From the IMG/VR virus record IMGVR_UViG_3300033146_004985, positions 1-39,873 of that record: DNA of 39,873 nucleotides; one strand, 5' to 3'. The notes under the pieces are model-generated. The model saw only the letters and a list, made by a program, of their open reading frames with translations. It did not search any database and had not been told where the DNA came from. Positions within the stretch are counted from its first letter, which is position 1, and every line of letters begins with the position of its first letter. This DNA comes from a virus. The translations under genes and the position numbers were made by a program. Shown in pieces: positions 3,814 through 39,873 of this stretch.

Positions 3814-3981
3814 ATGGAAAATTTAAATAGAGCTAAATGTGAAATTTATACAAGAGTTATGGGATATTATAGACCAGTTAGCCAATTTAATATATGAAAA
3901 AAATCAGAGTTTTATTTTAGAAAATGTTATGATTATAATAAAAGTATAAACTCTAAATTTTGTAAAGATTATAAAAACTAA
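3814..3981 (+). CDS. Stand-alone glycyl-radical domain, NrdD C-terminus-like (55 aa)
   Basis: The sequence RAKCEIYTRVMGYYRPV followed by FNIGKKSEF closely resembles the C-terminal glycyl-radical loop of anaerobic ribonucleotide reductase NrdD (family pattern R-V-x-G-Y-x-R-P then W/F-N-x-G-K-x-E-F). The candidate radical glycine is Gly17, coded GGA; the second conserved Gly, in NIGK, is TGA. The zinc-binding CxxC pairs of full NrdD are absent, and no large subunit is encoded in the window. By analogy with GrcA/YfiD-type spare parts it could repair an oxygen-cleaved host glycyl-radical enzyme. That role is inference; the motif match is visible. Confidence 0.6.
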
Positions 3982-4156: not shown

Positions 4157-4375
4157 ATGAAAAAAAACAAACCAAAATATAGAATTAAAAAAATAGAACA
4201 ATTTAATGAATATCCTATATTTTTAATAGAAAGAAGAATATTTTTAATTTGGTGTGAAGTAGAAGATCATTCAGATTTATTTGAATTTTCAGAAAAATTA
4301 AAGTTTAAAACAGAAAAAAAAGCAAGAGACCGGATAAACGAGCAAAATTCATATAAAGAAACTATTATTAAATAA
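4157..4375 (+). CDS. Small hypothetical protein (72 aa)
   Basis: Basic N-terminus (MKKNKPKYRIKKIEQ), a central hydrophobic strand pair (YPIFLIERRIFLIWCEVED) and a charged C-terminus. No family recognised. It contains a CGG codon at 4331 in KKARD-x-INEQN, where Trp would be as natural as Arg. It lies in the lysis operon, ten bases before the endolysin ATG. It has no glycine, so it is one of the few genes visible in the standard code. Confidence 0.6.
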   Translation: MKKNKPKYRIKKIEQFNEYPIFLIERRIFLIWCEVEDHSDLFEFSEKLKFKTEKKARDRINEQNSYKETIIK

Positions 4376-4385
4376 TTATAAATAT

Positions 4386-4892
4386 ATGATTGATAATGAT
4401 ATAAATAATCTAGAAATAAATTTTAAAAAAAAAGTACAAGACTTTCTAGATGAATGTAAACAAAAATGATTTAATATAATGATTATTGAATGATTAAGAA
4501 CTTTAGAAAGACAAAAGCGGCTTTATGAACAATGAAGAACAAGACCAGGCAAAAAAATAACTTGGACTTTAAAAAGTAAACATATTAATTGATTAGCAGT
4601 TGATATTGTTTTTAAGGATAAACATTGAAATCCTACTTGGGTATGAGATTATAATTCTTTGATTGAGATTTGAAAAAAACATTGATTAAAAAATCTTGCT
4701 CCAACTGAAACTTGCCACTTTGAAGATGATATATGAGAATATGAAAAAATGTTTAAAAATAAATATTGAAAATGAACAATATTTAATGATATTGATTGAG
4801 GTTTAGAAAAATGTATTGATAAAAATTGAGAATTAAATGCAAAAGAATTTTTTTATTTTGTTATGATTTGATTAGAAAGGACTAAAAAATAG
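4386..4892 (+). CDS. Endolysin, M15 (VanY-like) peptidoglycan peptidase
   Basis: 168 residues. The core matches metallopeptidase M15 (L-Ala-D-Glu/D-Ala-D-Ala peptidase): IIEGLRTLERQ and LYEQGRTRPG lead to the zinc motif SKHINGLAVDI (pattern S-x-H-x(2)-G-x-A-x-D, about residues 73-83), and a later CHFED supplies the third zinc ligand. A 50-residue C-terminal tail of unknown role follows, possibly for cell-wall binding. It should cleave stem-peptide bonds in the host wall during lysis, released by the membrane proteins just upstream. Nearly all glycines are TGA. A CGG at 4518 lies in ERQK-x-LYEQG. It ends in TAG, inside a terminator-like hairpin. Confidence 0.88.
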
Positions 4893-9500: not shown

Positions 9501-9833
9501 CTAAATTATAAGATTAGATAATCAACTTTTTTCAGATTCTCTTAATTCTTTTTTAATTAATGATAAATATTGTTTAATAAAATCTTCCCATGAATAAACA
9601 ACTAAAGAAATATATCACATTTTATTTAATTGTTTTCTTCTATATTCTTGAAGTTTACTTTCCATTCATCATCGTTTTTTAACTTCTATAAAAAAACTTT
9701 TTCAGTCTCAAATTAAAATTTGTAGATCAGGGATTCAATTTCTATTAGTTTTTATTAAATTAATAGTCATGAATCACTCTTTATCTATAAGATATTTCTG
9801 TATTTTAGTTTGTAATTTTGCTTCTACTCACAT
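9501..9833 (-). CDS. VRR-NUC nuclease (110 aa)
   Basis: The sequence NGIPDLQILIGDGKSFFIEVKK followed by GGMESKLQEYRRKQL and a YISLVVYSWEDF strand reproduces the VRR-NUC fold: P-D, then E-V-K as metal ligands, then S-x-L-Q. Length fits a stand-alone phage VRR-NUC. Next to an SNF2-type helicase it forms a common phage pair thought to process branched DNA. A CGA codon (9672-9674) directly before GG in the EVKK segment leaves the residue there uncertain. The gene ends in TAG and its start is overlapped by the next gene. Confidence 0.8.
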
Positions 9834-16551: not shown

Positions 16552-18099
16552 GTGGAAAAAATAAAAATTTTGAAATTTAATGAGTTAGTTAAATTAGAAA
16601 ATAATCCAAGAACAATAAAAGATAAAGATTTTAAAATTCTTTGTAATAGTATAAAAAAGTTTTGAGTTATTGAATGAAGACCATTTTTAATATCAAACAG
16701 AACTTGAAAAAATGTAATTCTTTGATGAAACCAAAGATATGAAGCTTGTAAAAAACTTTGAATAGATAAAATTCCAGTTTATATCTTTGAAAATTTAACA
16801 AAAGAAGAAGAAGAAGAAATAATAATTCGTGATAATATAAGTAATTGAGAATGGGATTTTGAACAATTATCTACTGAATGGAATTGTAAAGAATTAGAAG
16901 AATGGGGACTTGATATTCCTTGATTTGATAATATTGATGATATTGAAGATATTGAAGATAAAACCATTGAAGATGATAATTTTGAAGTAAATGAGTTAAT
17001 AAAAACAGATATAGTTTTATGAGATTTATTTGAAATTTGAGAACATAAATTACTTTGTTGAAATAGTACAAAAAAAGAAGATATTAAAAAACTAATGAAT
17101 TGAGAAAAGGCTGTATTATGACTTAACGACCCTCCGTACTGAATGAAGTTAGAGGCTAAATGAATTGAATGAGATAATATGAATTATAATGATTTACTTA
17201 ATTTTAATATAAAGTGGATAGATTTACAATTTGATTTTTTAGAAGATAATTGAAGTTTTTATTGTTGGGGAACTGATGAACCTTTAATGGATATTTATTC
17301 AGAAATAATGAAACCATATATTAAAAAACAAAAAGCAACTTTTAGAAATTTAATTACTTGGGATAAATGAAATTGACAAGGGCAAAATTCAGAGAATACA
17401 AGGAGTTATGCAATAGCTGATGAAAAGTGTTTGTTTATGATGTGTGGAGTGCAAGGATTTAATAATAATGCTGATAATTATTTTGAGGGGTGGGAACCTA
17501 TAAGAGATTATTTAGAATATCAAATAAAATGATTATGAGAAAGTGATTGAAAAATAGCAAAAGCATTATGATATAAAGATGGGAGAAGTGTAAATCATTG
17601 GCGGAATAAATCACAATTTAATTTTCCAACTAAAGAAAATTATCAAGCATTAAAAGAATATGCAAAAAGTAAAGAATACGATTTATTCAAAAAAGAATAT
17701 GATTTATTCAAAAAAGAATATGATGAGTTAAAAAAAGAATATTACAGCACAAGGGCATATTTTAACAATACACACGATAATTTTAATAATGTTTGGCACT
17801 TTGATAGAACTTCAAACTCTGAGAAAGAAGATACTGAATGACATTATACACCTAAACCATTGAAACTTTGCGAAAGAATAATAAAATCAAGCTGTCCAGA
17901 AAAAGGATTAATTATAGATTTTTTTCTTTGAAGTGGATCAACAATGGTTGCTTCTCATCAATTAAATAGAAAATGTTATTGAATAGAAATACAACCTAAA
18001 TATGTTCAAACAATAATAAATAGAATGCAAAAACTAGCTCCAGAGCTAGAAATTAAAAAAAATTGACAAACTTATATAAATAATAATTTAGAATTATAA
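16552..18099 (+). CDS. ParB-like nuclease domain fused to DNA methyltransferase (515 aa)
   Basis: Residues 1-95 are a ParB/sulfiredoxin-like domain: ENNPRTIKDKDFKIL, then GVIEGRP and GGNQRYEACKKLGI. After an acidic linker comes an adenine/cytosine methylase, with motif IV NDPPYGMKL near residue 192 and, near residue 457, SAM motif I IDFFLGSGSTMVA followed by YGIEIQPKY. This ParB-N6 methylase fusion is frequent in phages and mobile elements. Three near-perfect heptad repeats of EYDLFKK around 17675-17745 form a coiled coil before the C-terminal motif. The start is GTG at 16552. CGG at 17602 is in NHW-x-NKSQF, while a CGT in IIIRDN reads Arg. It is the third methylase in the genome and lies directly upstream of the terminase. 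Confidence 0.87.
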
Positions 18100-18549: not shown

Positions 18550-20046
18550 ATGGTTTGAAAATGAATACCAATAAATGAATTTCAAGAAATTATACAAAAT
18601 GATCCTATAATATTCCTTGATAGTGTTTTATGAGGTTGGCATTGGTCAACTCAAGATGAAATAATATTATCTGTTTTTAAAAATCAAAGAACTACTGTAA
18701 AAAGTTGTCATGGTGTTTGAAAATCTGCAATTGCAGCAAGAATAATACTCGCTTTTTTGTTTACTTATCCTGATAGTGTTATTGTTACAACAGCTCCGAC
18801 TTTTAGGCAAGTGGAAAATATATTATGGAGAGAGATAAGACAAGCGATAAAAAGGGCTAAAATACCTTTATGATGAAATATTTTAAAAGTAAAATATGAA
18901 ATAGATGAGAAGCGGTATGCTTTATGATTATCAAGTGATAAAGAGGATAATTTTCAAGGTTTTCATGCTAGACATTTATTAGTTGTTGCAGATGAGGCTG
19001 GATGAATAAAAGAATCAACTCTTAAAGTTATGGAGGCTTTACTTACTTCTCAATGAACAAGAATATTATATATTTGAAATCCTACACAAGCTAGTTGAGG
19101 ATTTTATGAATCTCATAAATCAGACCAATATAATAAAATAAGTATTTCTTGTTTTCAAACACCAAATTTTACAAAAAATAAAATAAAAAATGTTGATGAT
19201 ATAAAAAAACTTTCTAAAGAAGAAATAGAAAAACTTCCTTTAGTTTATCCTGAGTTAATAACTCCTTTATGGGTTTTTGATAGGATGAGAGATTGGGGGG
19301 AAGACTCTCCAATGTTTCAATCAAGAGTTTTATCTATATTCCCTGAAGAAGGTGAAGATACACTAATAAAACTTTCACATATTGAAAAAGCTTTATTAAA
19401 AGAATGGAGTAAAGAAGATTGGAAAATGAGACCAAGAAAGAAATGTATTTGAATAGATGTCGCTAGGTTTGGATCAGATACAACTGTTTTAATTTGAATG
19501 GATAACTGAAAAATGCACGATAAAATAATTTTTTATAAATGAAAAGACACGATGACAACCGTTGGAAAAGCTATAAGATTTTTTAATGAATTATGATATA
19601 AAAAAGAATTTGAATATTTTGTAGTTGATGATACAGGGGTTTGATGAGGTGTAACAGACCGCTTAATGGAGCTTTGATATAATGTATTACCAGTTAATAA
19701 TGCAAGTAGTCCAAGTAATAAAGAAATTTTTAGAGATATAAAAGGGGAGATATATTGGATGTTAAGACAAGCTTTTCTTGATTGAAATATAAGAATATAT
19801 GATGTAGATAGATTGATAAAAGATATTTCAAGTATAAAATATGATTATACTATTTGACAACAAAAAATATTTATAAAATCTAAAAAAAATATGAAAAAAG
19901 AGGGGTTAGATAGTCCAGACTTCGCTGATGCTTTAGCTTTAGCTTATTATTGATGTACTGTTTGAGATAGTTGAGATTCTATAATTGAAGACGAAGAAGG
20001 AAATGATACTACTGTTGTTTGAGATGTCAGAAATAAAAAATTTTAA
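18550..20046 (+). CDS. terL: Terminase large subunit (TerL)
   Basis: 498 residues, normal for TerL. Walker A is SCHGVGKSA with the required Gly57 coded TGA. A conserved segment, GLSSDKEDNFQGFHA, leads to Walker B LLVVADEAGG near residue 148. The C-terminal RNase H-like nuclease shows CIGIDVARFGSD near residue 299, VVDDTGVGGGVTDRL near 360 and SPDFADALALAYY near 457. It packages DNA into proheads and cleaves it at the end. It is also decoding evidence: CGG at 18913 stands in EK-x-YALGLSSDK, where this family carries Trp, and CGC at 19660 stands in VTDRL, where it carries Arg. Confidence 0.95.
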
Positions 20047-20830: not shown

Positions 20831-23650
20831 ATGGCAATATTAGATTTTTTTAAAAAACCAATCAAAAAAGAGGCTACATTAAGTGATTATTGAGTTGTAG
20901 GGACTGATTTACAACAAGGGATAATAATGGAGGAATACAACAATGATTTAAACTTTCCTGAAAGTATAGATATTTTTGATGAAATGAGAAAGTCAGATGG
21001 GACAGTTATTGCTATATTAAGAGCGATAAAACAACCTTTATTAAGTGCTAAGTGGCAAATACAAAGTTGATGAGAAGAAAAAACAGATAAACAAATCCAA
21101 GATTTTGTTAAATATAATTTATTTGAAAAAATAGAGTTTAAGAATTTTTTGAGAGAAAGTTTATCTTTTTTAGATTTTTGATTTTATTATTTTGAGAAAT
21201 TGTTTGAAACGGCAGATTGAAAAATAGAATGGAAAGAGTTTGCTCCTAGAATCCCTAAAGTTCATTACCTTTGGAATTATAAAAATAATGAAAAATGGAT
21301 TAATTGACATCCAGTTTGAGTAACTCAATTATTTAATAGTCTTGATGAAGAAAATAATAAAGAAAAAAACGAAACACAAATCCCTTGGGAAAAACTTATT
21401 TTATTTGCTTTTGAAAAAGAGTGAAATAATTTTGAATGAGTTTCACTTCTAAGAAGTGCTTATAAGCATTATTATTATAAAGATTTACTTTATAAAGTTC
21501 AGTCAATATCAGCTGAAAGATATGGTTCTTGAATACCAACAGCTAAAATTAAAAACTCTACACCTAAAGAGAATAAAAAGAAAATAATTGAATTTTTAAA
21601 AAATATAAGAAGTAACGAGAAAAGTTATTGAGTTTATAATGAAGATGTTGAACAGTTTGAAATAACAACACCAAACGGAACTTCTATAGATATGCAACCA
21701 ATGATAGACCACCACGATCGTAAAATATATGATTCTATTCTTGCTTGATTTCTTAATCTTACAAGTTGAGAGGGTGGAAGTAATGCATTGAGTAAAGACC
21801 AATCAAGCTTTTTTTTAAGAGGTTTGCAGGGTATTGCAGATATGTTTATTGATAATATGAATAAACATATAAAAGAATTAGTTGACTTAAATTTCAATAA
21901 TGTAAAAGATTATCCAACTCTTACGGTTTCTGATATTGGTTCTATTTCTATGGATGAACAAATTGATTCAATAGTTAAAATGAATAATGCTTGATTACTT
22001 AATATTACTGATGATGATAAAAATATTTTTAGAGGTATATTAAAACTTCCAAAATTAACACAAGAACAATTAAAAGAAGTTGAAAAGAATAAAGAAGTTG
22101 AGAAAAATAAAATATGGGAGTGAGAAATAAAAACAATAAAAAATAAAGAAATGGCTAATTTTTTAAAAGAAAAATGATTAACAAATAATTATAAAAGAAC
22201 AGATATTAATAAAACAGAATTAGCACAAGTTATAGATAATTATTCTTGATGTGTAATGTTACAATTAAATAATAGATTATTAGATTTTTTAAATATTTCT
22301 AATATTGATTTATATTATTGAGATGAAATATATAATTGATGATGATTAGAAGATGATTTACATATAACTTTATTATATTGATTATCTAGAGATGTAAGCT
22401 TAAAAGATGTAAAAGAAAAAATAAAATATAATAATGAAACAATTAATATTTTATGAATATCAGTTTTTGAAAATGATGATTATGATATTTTAGTTGCAAA
22501 AGTAGAAAAAGATACATTTTTAACTAAAACAAATAATAATTTAAAAGAATTAGATTATATTAATAGTTTTCCAGATTATGTTCCTCACATAACAATAGCA
22601 TATTTAAAAAAATGAAGAGCTATAAATTATATAAAAGATATAAAAATGGAAAAAATTCCGACTAATTGAATAATATATTCTCCTAGTTGAGAGAGCTGAT
22701 GATATTTATTTTCAGAAAAAAAAAAGACTCCAACCAAAAGGGAAAAAACATTTACTAAAAATATAACAGATTTTGAGAAATATTTAGAAAAGAAATATAA
22801 AGAAGCTGAAAAAATAGTAAAAGAAGTAGAAAAAGAATATCAAACAGAATTAGTAAAATTATATGATGAAAGTGAAAGTACAAGAATTGATTGAGTGGTT
22901 GTTTTAAATTATTCAAAAAAACAAATAAATAAATGAAATAAAATAGTAAACAAAATTGCTAAAAAGCTTGAAAAACAATTAATAGGAAGTAAACTTCAAG
23001 ATGAAATATTTAAAGAGGCTTTGAAACAATGAGAAAATACAATGAATACTAATGATAAAATGTTTAGTGAAAAATTAGAGTTTGCTTGAAATTGACAATA
23101 TCATATAGGAAAGAGGGTAGATATTAAAGAATGACAAATAAATACTTTCATAGCATGATATAAAAGTAATATGCAATGAGTTATTTATAATGAAAATAGA
23201 AGAGTTTTAGAAAATATAACATTAAATTATTGAAGTAATACGAGTGTAGATTTAGCGAAAAAAACAGCGAGTGAAATAAATATAAATAAAAATATTTTAT
23301 CTTTGAGTTTTATCACTCATCCGAGAGCTTTATTTAAGACTTATATTTATAATGATAGTCAAGAAAATTGATTTACATTATTTAAAACATTAGTACCAAC
23401 GAATAAACTCCCTAATGTTATTGATAGACCTTTTGGGATGACAGCAAGTTTTATATTTAAAATAAATACAGTCGCTCAAATAAATAAAGCAGTTAATGTA
23501 GCAACAGCTTGAAAAACAGCTGAGGCAGTAACTTGATTATGATTACATCATTGAAGTTTTGAATATTATTACCCTATTGAAAGTGATAAATTAAAAGAAG
23601 AAGAAGAAATAGCAAAACAACAAAGAAAAGATTTATTAGATAATTTATAA
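20831..23650 (+). CDS. Portal protein fused to a 2H phosphoesterase and a minor-head-like domain (939 aa)
   Basis: Residues 1-410 are a Mu gp29/DUF935-type portal (FPESIDIFDEMRKSDGTV, AILRAIKQPLLSAKWQI, ERYGSGIP, QPMIDHHDRKIYDSILAGF). Residues about 440-620 contain two H-x-T motifs, LHITLLYG (His511) and PHITIAYL (His586), about 75 residues apart. This is the signature of the 2H phosphoesterase superfamily (2'-5' RNA ligase-like, cyclic phosphodiesterases). The remainder, with a coiled coil and a LGLHHGSFEYYYPI end, resembles minor-head or portal-associated domains. The reading frame is unbroken for 940 codons with only TGA inside. The portal ring threads DNA; the enzyme domain's substrate is unknown. 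It is the first gene after a terminator and is followed after two bases by the protease. Confidence 0.82.
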
Positions 23651-26275: not shown

Positions 26276-27348
26276 ATGTGATTTAACCAATTAAAAAGAC
26301 AAATAAATAATATGAGAGTTTTGTCTGCTCTTAGAAATATTGAAGCAATGGGGAATATATACTATGTTTTTAATTCTTCAAATTCTTATTACTCACAATT
26401 TAGAAAATTAGTAGATAATACTTATGAAGACTGAACTGAAGTTTTTCATACTTCATTAACAAGTGCTTATGCTGCTTGTACTTCTTGAAGAAATGATGTT
26501 ATTTTACTTGATTGAAATTCTACTCATACATTAACAGAGGGGCTTGATTGGACTAAATCAAGAATTAATGTAGTAGGTATGGATTGAGGGAATAGATTAG
26601 TTCAACAATGAGCTAAAATTCAAAGTACAGATACTGCAGGAGATGCTTATGTAATTAAAATTACTTGAACTAGAAATAGTTTTAAAAATATTAAATTTAT
26701 TCAAATTGATACTGATGCAGCTGCTTTAACAGTTGCTCAATTATGATGAGAAGGGAATTTATACGAAAATTGTTCTTTTACTTTTTGAGTTGATGATAAT
26801 CTTTGAAGTGCTAGTGCTTTTGAAGTTGTAAACGGTGAAGACTCTTGAACATTTATTAATTGTACTTTTTGAGTTGATGATAATCTTTGAAGTGCTAGTG
26901 CTTTTGAAGTTGTAAACGGTGAAGACTCTTGAACATTTATTAATTGTACTTTTTGAGCTGATACATTATTGACTAGTGAAGCAAGAGCTATTATGAGTGT
27001 GGATCAAGTAACATCATGACAAGAATTTAAATCTAATAGGTTCAAAGGTTGTACATGGATGACTTCTAGTTCTTCAAGTACTGCTACATTTATAAGATTG
27101 GCTGCGATTACTGACATATTATTTACTAATGTATTTGAAGATTGTAATTTTGTCGCTTCAGTTGATACTGCTTGAGGTGCTGCAGTAGCTGAGGCAGTTC
27201 AAACATGAACTTGAACGAATAAATGAACATTATTATTCACAAGACCTTCTGCTTTTAATGTAACTAATGTGGAAGAAATGCTTGAGTTCAAGTTGTTGCA
27301 GCAGTTTCAGTTGCGGCCGCTAATGAATGAATCCAACCAACTGCTTAA
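26276..27348 (+). CDS. Beta-helix structural protein with a -1 frame break near its end (about 357 aa)
   Basis: MGFNQLKRQINNMRVLSALR opens a protein whose later segments (NDVILLDGNSTHTLTEGL, SFKNIKFIQIDTD, GNLYENCSFTFG, FINCTFG) repeat as right-handed beta-helix rungs, like pectate-lyase-fold virion proteins. Two rungs are an exact 84-base tandem duplication. The uninterrupted frame runs to TAA at 27353, but after about 27270 it uses codons otherwise rare here (CAG, TTG, CTG, CGG, CCG). The -1 frame instead reads NVGRNAGVQVVAAV and ends NEGIQPTA at TAA 27346, with TGA glycines, and looks native. So a one-base deletion, a sequencing error or a programmed shift lies around 27266-27275. It may be a capsid fibre or decoration. 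Confidence 0.65.
26780..26947 (+). repeat. Perfect 84-bp tandem duplication within the beta-helix gene
   Basis: Two identical 84-base units (26780-26863 and 26864-26947) begin with ACTTTTTGAG, and a third, partial copy of ten bases follows. Each unit encodes 28 residues, TFGVDDNLGSASAFEVVNGE plus eight more. Absence of any difference points to recent duplication. Confidence 0.93.
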
Positions 27349-27367
27349 TTTTTAATTTAAATATTTT

Positions 27368-32321: not shown

Positions 32322-32621
32322 ATGTCAAGATTTGCAAGTAAAAAATTAAAAAAAATAGATTTATGAGATTGAGAATTTGTAAAAATTCCAACGGCTTTAT
32401 CTTTTAATCAAGTAATGAATATAAATAAAGGATGAGATGAATTTGAAACATCTAAATTAATGTTGATTGAATGTATTAAAGAATGGAATATTAAAGATGA
32501 AAATTGAAAAATCCCTAAAGTAAATGAAGAAAATATTTTGAATTTAGATATACAAACAATAACAAAAATATCATGAGAAATAACAAAACTTATTCAAAAC
32601 CAACAAGATAAAAAAAAATAA
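32322..32621 (+). CDS. Tail assembly chaperone, zero-frame product (99 aa)
   Basis: FASKKLKKIDLGDGEFVKIP, then LMLIECIKEWNIKDENGKIP and LNLDIQTITKISGEITKLI, ending QQDKKK and TAA. Small, helical, directly after the tube and before the tape measure, it fits the first tail assembly chaperone. The end is nine consecutive A bases, a typical slip site. Confidence 0.75.
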
Positions 32622-32782
32622 AACATTTACAAAATGCTGTAAATGGTAAAATCTGAAGTGAAATATATATTGATTTTATAATGAGTAAAAAATTTTGACT
32701 AGATCGGGGAGAATATAATTATCAACGAATGCAAGATTTTTTGCTTATTCTTCATATAAAGAATAAAAATAATAAAAAATAA
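32618..32782 (+). CDS. Tail assembly chaperone -1 frameshift extension (54 aa)
   Basis: This frame has no usable start, but it continues the chaperone if the ribosome slips back one base on the A-run at 32610-32618. It reads IKHLQNAVNGKIGSEIYIDF, then SKKFGLD-x-GEYNYQ-x-MQDF, where x are CGG (32705) and CGA (32726). A Trp after GLD fits the family's F-G-(x)-W/T-x-E-x segment. Total fusion is 153 residues. The gpG-gpGT arrangement is usual upstream of the tape measure. Confidence 0.75.
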
Positions 32783-36650: not shown

Positions 36651-38600
36651 ATGATAAAAGTATTAAATCCAGACTGAAGTATTTTTGATATAATCTTTGA
36701 TTATAATTTTATAGAATTAAAATATAATAATATAAATCAAATTTCTTTATCTTGAAATCCTGATAAATATATTTGAAAAAATTTTTATATTTATGATTGA
36801 GAAACTTTATTAAGTTCTTGAATTTGTGAAAAATATAATTTTAGTAAAAATACTAATAATTGAAGTGTTTATTTATATCCGCTTTTTTATGATTTAAGAA
36901 AAGATTTTTATGATGATTGAGCTTGAAATTATGTTGTTTATAAAAATGATACTTTTGAAAACATATTAACTGATTTAATAGATCAATATTCAGTCAAAGT
37001 AGATAATCCTATTTTATATTTAAAAACACCTTTAGCTAATAGTTGAAATACTGGAATAACAATAAAATATACATTCAATTATAAAACTTTTCTTGAGGCT
37101 TTTAATATACTTTTTTATACTTTTCTTCCAATGGAAAAAAGTGTATATTTTCATTATGATTGAGGAATTGAAATAATTAATGAACCGACTGAAATAAAAG
37201 CAACTTTTTGAGATGATATAAAAAAAATAAATTATAATAAAAAAACAGATGAAATAATAAATTATATTATTTTTGATAATAAATTAAGTTGAACGGATCA
37301 TATTTTAAAAATTTATGAAGACACTACAAGTACTTCATTATATTGAAAAAGGGTTAAATATTGGAGTGATTCAAGAATAAAATATGAAGAAACGGCAGAT
37401 GAAAAAATAAGTTCTTATTTTACAAAATATGCTTACCCTATAATCGAAATTGAAAATATTATAACAAATAATCAAGAAGTTTGATTATATAATAAATTAA
37501 CTATAAATAATTGGGATAAAACTTTTGATGATAATATTTTTGTTGTTTGAATTTCTTTTCTAAAAAATTGATATAAAAAAATTATTGTATGAACTAAATT
37601 GACACGATCTACATTAAGTAGAGAAGATGATATGGATAGTATAAGTGAAAGCTTAGATTATATAGCAACTATGCCTGATTTACCTGATTATATAAAAGAA
37701 ACTTATATTGATAGTACTGAAATAAGAAGTCCAAATATAGCTTGAAATAATGGTTATTTTTCATCTCTTATGAAAGTATGATCTAGTTGAATTGAAATAG
37801 ATTGAGTAAATAAAACAATAAGCTCAAGTAATTTTGTTACTTGAACTACTTGATGGAATATAGATAATGATTGAAGTGCTGAGTTTAATGATGTAGAAAT
37901 TAGATGAGATATGAAGGCTTGAACTATTGATATTAATGATGAATTTAAAGTAGATAGTTCTTGAAATGTAGATATATGAGCTTGAAGTATTAATATTAAT
38001 GATGAGTTTACGGTTGATAGTTCTTGAAATGTAAAATGAAATGATTTTATAAATGAAACAACTTTATATAATAAATTATGAAGTACTCCAACTGGAGCAG
38101 ATGGTAAATTATGGTGTGAATGAAATCCAACAAATAAAGTGTTATGGTGATTTTTTGGATGAGATACTTCAAATAAACAACAAGTATCAATGTCAAGAAT
38201 GCAAGAGAGTTATGCTTTTGATTTGACAACTCCGTCATGAGCTGCTAGTATAGTGAATAAAATATCAACTCGGTTTCAGCCAAGAACGATAATATTTCAT
38301 TGATTTTATGAAAATACAACTGATGATATATATTGATATACTAATTGACATGCTTGAAGTGTTTCATCTAGAAAATGATATTGTGCAAGTCTTGAGTTCG
38401 ATATTACTAGTTGAATATATATAAATACATATACAAAAACAGATAGGTTTTGACATTGATGAGGTTGAGTAAATTGAAAAGTTAGAGCTGAGGTTTATGA
38501 ATTATCTTCTGTAATAAAATGGGAAGATGATTGAGTAACTGTATATATTCATGCTGATTATTTACGGAGAATTGCTTGAGTTATTACAGTTTTATGATAA
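36651..38600 (+). CDS. Baseplate/tail-tip protein with receptor-region repeats (649 aa)
   Basis: Residues 1-340 resemble the front of siphovirus tail-associated proteins (MIKVLNPDGSIFDIIFDYNF, then KNFYIYDGETLLSSGICEKY, and a FLEAFNILFYTFLPMEK segment). Around residues 420-460, two copies of an INDEF-x-VDSSGNV repeat form a shaft, followed by a C-terminal globular part (QPRTIIFHGFYENTTDDIYG). CGG occurs at 38271 and 38565 and CGA at 37605; whether these are Trp is not decidable from the local sequence. It sits between the structural gene above and the helical and BppU-like genes. Confidence 0.65.
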
Positions 38601-39282: not shown

Positions 39283-39873
39283 ATGAGTACAATAACCGTT
39301 GAAGTATGAAATAATACAATAAATATAACTACAGAAGCTCAATGACCAGCTTGAACTCAATGAATACAAGGTATACAATGAATACAAGGTATACAAGGTA
39401 TACAAGGAGATACTTGAGCTCAATGAATACAAGGTATAAAATGAGATACTTGAGATAATGCACCTGATACAGAAATACAATATTCAATTAATTGAAGTAC
39501 TTCTTGGCATGATACATTTGCAAGTTGAGATTTATATATAAGATTTTCTACTGATTGAGGAAGTACACGGAGTAGTTGACAAAAGTTTATATGAGAAGGC
39601 TCAGTAAATTACGAAAATACAATTACAGTTGCAAAAAGTTGATGAGATTATACAACTATTCAAGCGGCTATAAATGCAAGTGTTAGTTGAGATGCTATAG
39701 TTGTTTATCCTTGAACATATACAGAAAGTATAACAACTAAAGCTGGAGCAATGACAACTCTTGTAGGTATAGGTACAATGTGAAGTGTAGTTATTGAAGC
39801 TAATACAGGAACAGCTTTAACTGTACCAAGTGCAATGATGAGTATGTCTTTTATAAAAAATCTTAAATTAAAA
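39283..39873 (+). CDS. Tail fibre, N-terminal part (continues at base 115)
   Basis: This is the first 197 residues of a 937-residue fibre that crosses the circle joint. With TGA read as Gly, residues 21-59 form 13 consecutive Gly-X-Y triplets, a collagen-like stalk; eight glycines are TGA and five GGN, at equivalent positions. Residues 89-97 match an Asp-box (S-x-D-x-G-x-T-W) only if the CGG at 39568 is Trp. From about residue 107 the DYTTIQAAINA and PGTYTE motifs mark the start of a pectate-lyase-like beta-helix, common in receptor-binding fibres. The start lies 11 bases after the stop of the BppU-like gene, so it belongs to the tail operon. It probably trimerises and binds the host surface; the receptor cannot be inferred. 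Confidence 0.85.
39760..39873. repeat. Terminal direct overlap, right copy (circle joint)
   Basis: Second copy of the 114-base sequence at the window start. Collapsing the two gives about 39,759 unique bases. No terminator, promoter or gene border coincides with it, which argues against a physical terminus here. Confidence 0.9.

Follow-up and report, generated by a model that had tools for sequence, protein, structure and literature searches.

CGG as a probable tryptophan codon, alongside TGA as glycine, in a phage linked to Candidatus Gracilibacteria

The terminase gene and the code of the phage

The gene for the terminase large subunit (TerL; phrog_2 terminase) occupies positions 18550-20046 on the forward strand of IMG/VR virus record IMGVR_UViG_3300033146_004985, a phage genome of 39,873 bases that was analysed over its whole length and is hereafter called the window. 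Its open reading frame (ORF), in which TGA is read as glycine, carries an in-frame CGG codon at 18913-18915, in the context YEIDEK[CGG]YALGLSSDKE. The original prediction, made from the letters of the window, was that CGG stands here for tryptophan and not for arginine. Our results lead us to propose, with a probability of roughly 0.92, that the phage is written in a code in which TGA means glycine and CGG tryptophan while CGC is still arginine, that its CGG codons would be decoded by a CCG-anticodon tRNA of the host, and that a member of one Candidatus Gracilibacteria family is the likeliest host.

The window has a GC content of 23.6% and begins and ends with a perfect direct repeat of 114 bases (1-114 and 39760-39873), so that the genome is probably complete. 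The left-end ORF carries on the tail-fibre ORF of the right end, which makes a circular or circularly permuted genome probable, with the two ORFs forming a single gene. As had been supposed, TGA is read as glycine: 658 in-frame TGA codons are spread over 36 ORFs under genetic code 25, coding is dense, and the terminase, portal, methylase, primase-helicase, endolysin and other families are intact in this code. Within the main ORFs CGG occurs nine times and CGA, CGC and CGT twice each, together with 252 AGA, 21 AGG and 85 TGG codons; at so low a GC content, the lead of CGG among the CGN codons is unexpected. When the -1-frame part of a tail-chaperone gene (32705-32707) and a small ORF (4331-4333) are counted, the in-frame CGG codons number 11, close to the ten or so first estimated, although one of them, at 27314-27316, is probably not real. 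Neither ARAGORN nor Rfam found a phage-encoded tRNA in the window, which implies that the CGG codons would be read by a tRNA of the host.

All CGG codons of the window lie on the forward strand. At the TerL codon, vir525, which at 36% identity is the nearest homolog with a standard code, has tryptophan, and so do phiEf11 and phiCD27; arginine occurs in none of 11 homologs, the remainder having mostly other hydrophobic residues; solved relatives of TerL were looked for and none was found. A related contig from another metagenome (L001), 76% identical, has CGG at the very same TerL codon. In the fusion of ParB with a DNA methylase, a site that the original prediction had left out, the CGG at 17602-17604 faces a TGG codon in a 60%-identical homolog (L002; VNHW[W]NKSQW) and phenylalanine in three others. 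The fibre-tip domain holds two CGG codons, of which that at 2200-2202 aligns with tryptophan and that at 2284-2286, in an aromatic column, with tyrosine in the homolog from Mycobacterium phage LifeSavor. In the Asp-box-like motif STDGGST[CGG] of the tail fibre (39568-39570), Klebsiella phage FZ41 has tryptophan. The codon at 4518-4520 in the VanY-type endolysin is not diagnostic, since it falls in a variable column (A/A/K in solved homologs).

Taken as a whole, the six alignable sites show tryptophan at four, tyrosine at one and a variable residue at one, and at the five non-variable sites arginine never appears among the homologs fetched. The aromatic demand that had been perceived at 39568, 18913 and 2200 is thus borne out by a tryptophan at each; of the two further sites said to agree, 2284 does so through its tyrosine, and for 32705 no profile match was obtained in the T part of the tail chaperone.

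Two quantitative comparisons point in the same direction. When tryptophan and arginine were substituted in turn at the CGG codons and scored against PHROG profiles, tryptophan was ahead by 6.2 bits for the two fibre sites jointly (phrog_3030), by 3.3 bits at the Asp box (phrog_3890), and by 4.0 and 6.3 bits for TerL, where weaker profiles gave -2.1, -0.9 and -0.6 bits. We also computed the likelihood of all 20 amino acids over the six sites, using the single closest homolog at each and either BLOSUM62 or a host-empirical substitution model with frequencies measured in the host family. Tryptophan ranked first under both, followed at 9.7 nats by tyrosine with BLOSUM62 (arginine at 18.1) and at 15.7 nats with the host-empirical model (arginine at 27.1); phenylalanine lay 11.7 nats below tryptophan. 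At the three sites that the original prediction had not headlined, tryptophan exceeded arginine by 4.9 or 7.5 nats.

Host lineage and the reading of CGN codons

Translation-factor genes with TGA at conserved glycines were found at 27 loci of the species collection, nearly all of them from Gracilibacteria and related metagenome-assembled genomes (MAGs), and through these loci 353 genomes of the class were reached and searched. DNA of the window matches contigs of MAGs in a single family, that of genome G120, which includes the Ca. Gracilibacteria MAGs UBA6489, STD1_101, DOLJORAL78_24_7 and BROCD037 (loci L022, L008, L012 and L026). Relatives of phage genes comprise two methylase genes in G113, one with 59-78% amino acid identity, a primase in G010 (37%) and a tail protein in G095 (50%), and the matching MAG contigs are TGA-rich, have 24-27% GC and rarely use CGG. 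At the nucleotide level, a small NrdD C-terminal-like gene (3814-3981, forward strand; named from a sequence motif and not from a profile search) is common to many Gracilibacteria MAGs, with its best matches in the G120 family at 76-89% identity; this gene is likely host-derived. These sequence matches are indirect evidence, by which the host most likely belongs to the G120 family.

The code of this family was examined by comparing about 0.78 Mb of G120 with ortholog residues in G121, which consists of one contig of 1.34 Mb, CGA and CGG being masked; for each codon, we called the amino acid that best explains the partner residues. CGG-CGG pairs shared by both genomes were excluded from the counts; some belong to spurious, strongly conserved ORFs that probably fall within rRNA genes. 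All 61 of 61 codons of G121 were called as in table 25, and so were 59-60 of 62 in G120, the exceptions being CGG, CGA and, in one setting, CGC. In G120, CGG means tryptophan: 18 of its 28 partners are tryptophan and none is arginine, and tryptophan leads tyrosine by 57-73 nats. Such codons occur, for instance, in the LeuRS motif HPMG[CGG]DAFGLPAE and in a second motif, SYPHC[CGG]RC. Although CGG is too rare in G121 to be called alone, four of its six unmasked partners are tryptophan. CGT is arginine in the host family, and CGC is arginine or nearly tied with lysine (in one G120 setting lysine is just ahead). In the phage itself both CGC codons with relatives, at 19660 and 13681, face AGA, from which we conclude that CGC has kept arginine, as had been proposed.

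A tRNA with anticodon CCG was located in G121 by scanning the whole genome with ARAGORN, and in G120 through Rfam; 25 of the family's 48 genomes contain it. The pair A1:U72 and the base G73, which the family's own tRNA-Trp also has, are found in all 23 copies that could be read. These copies also appear to keep A20 in the D loop (e.g., L442 and L443), an identity element of arginine tRNAs, and their D and T loops are unusual. Because A20 is kept beside Trp-like features, this tRNA looks, as far as its sequence can tell, like a chimera, an arginine tRNA captured by the tryptophanyl-tRNA synthetase; the Absconditabacteria-like copies mostly have G73 and A1:U72 and are without A20. The presence of such a tRNA had been suggested as a check, and the result is mixed, in that the tRNA exists with a Trp-like acceptor end and yet retains an arginine element. 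Since the tRNA features alone could not settle the meaning of CGG, the conclusion is carried by the codon evidence. We suggest that phage CGG codons are decoded by this tRNA, charged with tryptophan, in a host from the family where it is widespread.

Several observations weigh against this interpretation. Alignable homologs exist for just six of the 11 CGG sites, and several of these sites rest on a single homolog. More distant TerL homologs carry leucine or methionine at the CGG codon, and phrog_2 places phenylalanine slightly above tryptophan there (134.6 vs. 133.3). The profiles put tryptophan 0.6-2.6 bits below arginine at the endolysin site, and phrog_498 puts arginine 2.3 bits above tryptophan in the methylase. 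On the host side, the retained A20 means that the charging of the CCG tRNA is not readable from sequence; the TerL search of the 353 genomes returned distant terminases alone and no related prophage, and when the DNA of the class was searched for spacer matches, many short, AT-rich, chance-like matches came up and no convincing spacer.

Among the alternatives, the one that survives best is that CGG specifies another aromatic residue, phenylalanine or tyrosine, or is read ambiguously as tryptophan and arginine. In its favour are the preference of phrog_2, the phenylalanine of the methylase homologs beyond the closest one, and the host tRNA, in which a Trp-like A1:U72 and G73 stand beside an Arg-like A20. 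Against it stand the 9.7 and 11.7 nats by which tyrosine and phenylalanine fall short over the six phage sites and the lead of more than 56 nats that tryptophan has over tyrosine in G120, and we regard this alternative as improbable, though some low-level ambiguity of reading may occur. Still less credible is an ordinary arginine codon with coincidentally aromatic columns: the endolysin site and the one methylase profile do lean slightly to arginine, and this leaning has to be set against a deficit of 18-27 nats over the six sites and the complete lack of arginine among the 28 partners in G120. The family alignments, for which an arginine consensus had been named as the adverse outcome, show no arginine at five sites and a slight arginine lean at the variable endolysin column.

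In plant mitochondria, a pattern of CGG for tryptophan was once taken for a change of code and turned out to be C-to-U editing. Editing of CGG to UGG in the RNA is here a negligible prospect, given that more than half of the family genomes have their own CCG tRNA, Trp-like in its acceptor end; bacteria, moreover, are not known to edit their mRNAs widely from C to U. Assembly or sequencing errors for TGG, which a single metagenome-derived record with one apparent frameshift near 27314 might suggest, are refuted by the independent L001 contig with its CGG at the same TerL codon, and G120 uses CGG for tryptophan in many genes. The reading of CGG as tryptophan and not arginine is supported by five of the six testable phage sites, the L001 codon, the codon comparison in the host family and the tRNA genes.

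The narrowing of the host towards Absconditabacteria calls for refinement. Gracilibacteria are the better candidates because CGA, read as tryptophan in the Absconditabacteria subtype, is arginine in G121 and because the phage CGA at 9672-9674 (reverse strand), in a VRR-NUC nuclease, disfavours tryptophan; the best call for CGA in G120 is alanine. At the phage site the PHROG scores are 58.3 bits for arginine, 58.4 for alanine and 56.4 for tryptophan, and tryptophan scores 1.7-3.3 bits below arginine; arginine and alanine fit equally, and as the sole testable CGA of the phage, this codon is weak evidence for the phage itself.

The alanine call in G120 (L369-L407) stands 5.6-10.7 nats over serine and far ahead of arginine, and among the conserved motifs that contain its partners is the DEAH box, VVDE[CGA]HN. 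In line with this call, an independent test on eight CGA sites of G020 (L454-L468), among them one in FtsZ (GSGENRAVE[CGA]ARAAIDSPL), put alanine 13.6 nats over arginine but only 1.9 over proline. Summed Pfam scores for seven proteins, a biased set chosen by eye, were 1298.7 bits for alanine, 1289.5 for serine, 1279.3 for arginine and 1272.7 for tryptophan. Judged by a sequence pattern, the tRNA with anticodon UCG of G119, G120 and G020, and of only these among the 48 genomes, has the acceptor stem of the G120 tRNA-Ala, including G3:U70 and A73; the copy at L263:428-503 (reverse strand), whose acceptor stem matches the tRNA-Ala of its own genome, has a 4-bp anticodon stem. G099, G101 and G106 have an ordinary Arg-type tRNA-UCG. 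Part of the host family could then divide the CGN box three ways, with CGT and CGC for arginine, CGG for tryptophan and CGA for alanine through this tRNA. We hold this to be fairly probable, and no firmer, as alanine makes up 11 of 78 CGA partners in G120 compared with about half for GCA codons, which indicates that CGA stands at variable sites or is read ambiguously. That the phage itself follows CGA as alanine seems unlikely, its few CGA codons being unable to separate arginine from alanine.

Other features of the window

The remaining CGG codons lie in the small ORF at 4157-4375 (4331-4333, KKARD[CGG]INEQ, read from sequence), in the T part of a -1-frameshift tail-assembly-chaperone pair (32705-32707, FGLD[CGG]GEYNYQ) and at two places in a tail-tip protein (38271-38273 and 38565-38567), for the C-terminal part of which no phage homolog was found. 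In the chaperone pair (32322-32779) the stop is preceded by an A run and followed by a -1 frame, as in lambda G/GT. The apparent CGG at 27314-27316, in the ORF at 26276-27355, is probably out of frame behind an upstream frameshift and not a true codon, because the expected C-terminus (...NAGVQVVAAVSVAAANEGIQPTA*) sits in another frame. Between 27250 and 27355 this ORF seems to leave its frame, with an alanine-rich C-terminus in a different one, by either an assembly frameshift or a programmed shift; the same protein contains two near-identical tandem stretches (TFGVDDNLGSASAFEVVNGEDSGTFINC).

Downstream of the terminase gene, a single ORF (20831-23650) joins a Mu-type portal to an Acb1-like (anti-CBASS) domain (Pfam Acb1, residues 507-605, E 1e-7), and a related, colinear ORF is present in L001. 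A portal scan and a loose scan for TGA-Gly terminase motifs, the latter with 120 stretches that were mostly chance, brought no further close phages from the collection, and a second motif scan added endolysin-level similarity only.

Comparison with known genetic codes

Neither CGG as tryptophan in a phage nor CGA as alanine was found reported in the open-access literature; the latter, if true, would be an unreported sense-codon reassignment on top of TGA as glycine and CGG as tryptophan. Both the use of CGG for tryptophan in these bacteria and the adoption by phages of a sense-codon change of their host are already published (Shulgina and Eddy 2021, PMC8629427). If the phage indeed combines a stop-codon with a sense-codon change, a doubly altered code would be no lasting barrier to infection, and it would tie the phage to hosts sharing that code. 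Following the host, moreover, has led to a lineage whose CGN box is seemingly divided among three amino acids by means of natural tRNAs.

NCBI table 25 (SR1 and Gracilibacteria) has TGA as glycine, as in the phage, and differs from it in keeping CGG as arginine. Translated by this table, about one in ten tryptophan positions of the phage, and of phages of these Gracilibacteria, would receive the wrong residue. In the Absconditabacteria code described by Shulgina and Eddy, TGA is glycine and both CGA and CGG are tryptophan. The phage resembles it in the meaning of TGA and CGG, in its low GC content and in the rarity of CGG; it departs from it in that its CGA disfavours tryptophan and that in the linked family CGA is arginine (G121) or apparently alanine (G120, G020).

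According to the same source, CGG is predicted to be tryptophan in some Gracilibacteria and arginine in others, and the paper regards this as a possible extension in the bacteria. Codon, clade and meaning are those seen in the phage, which most likely uses its host's own code; the passages considered mention no phage of these bacteria with such a code. They do describe two phages with AGG as methionine (GCA_902730795.1 and GCA_902730815.1), which, like the present phage, follow a sense-codon reassignment of their host without carrying a matching tRNA. Codon, residue and host differ between these cases, and the phage analysed here is set apart by combining a stop-codon change with a sense-codon change.
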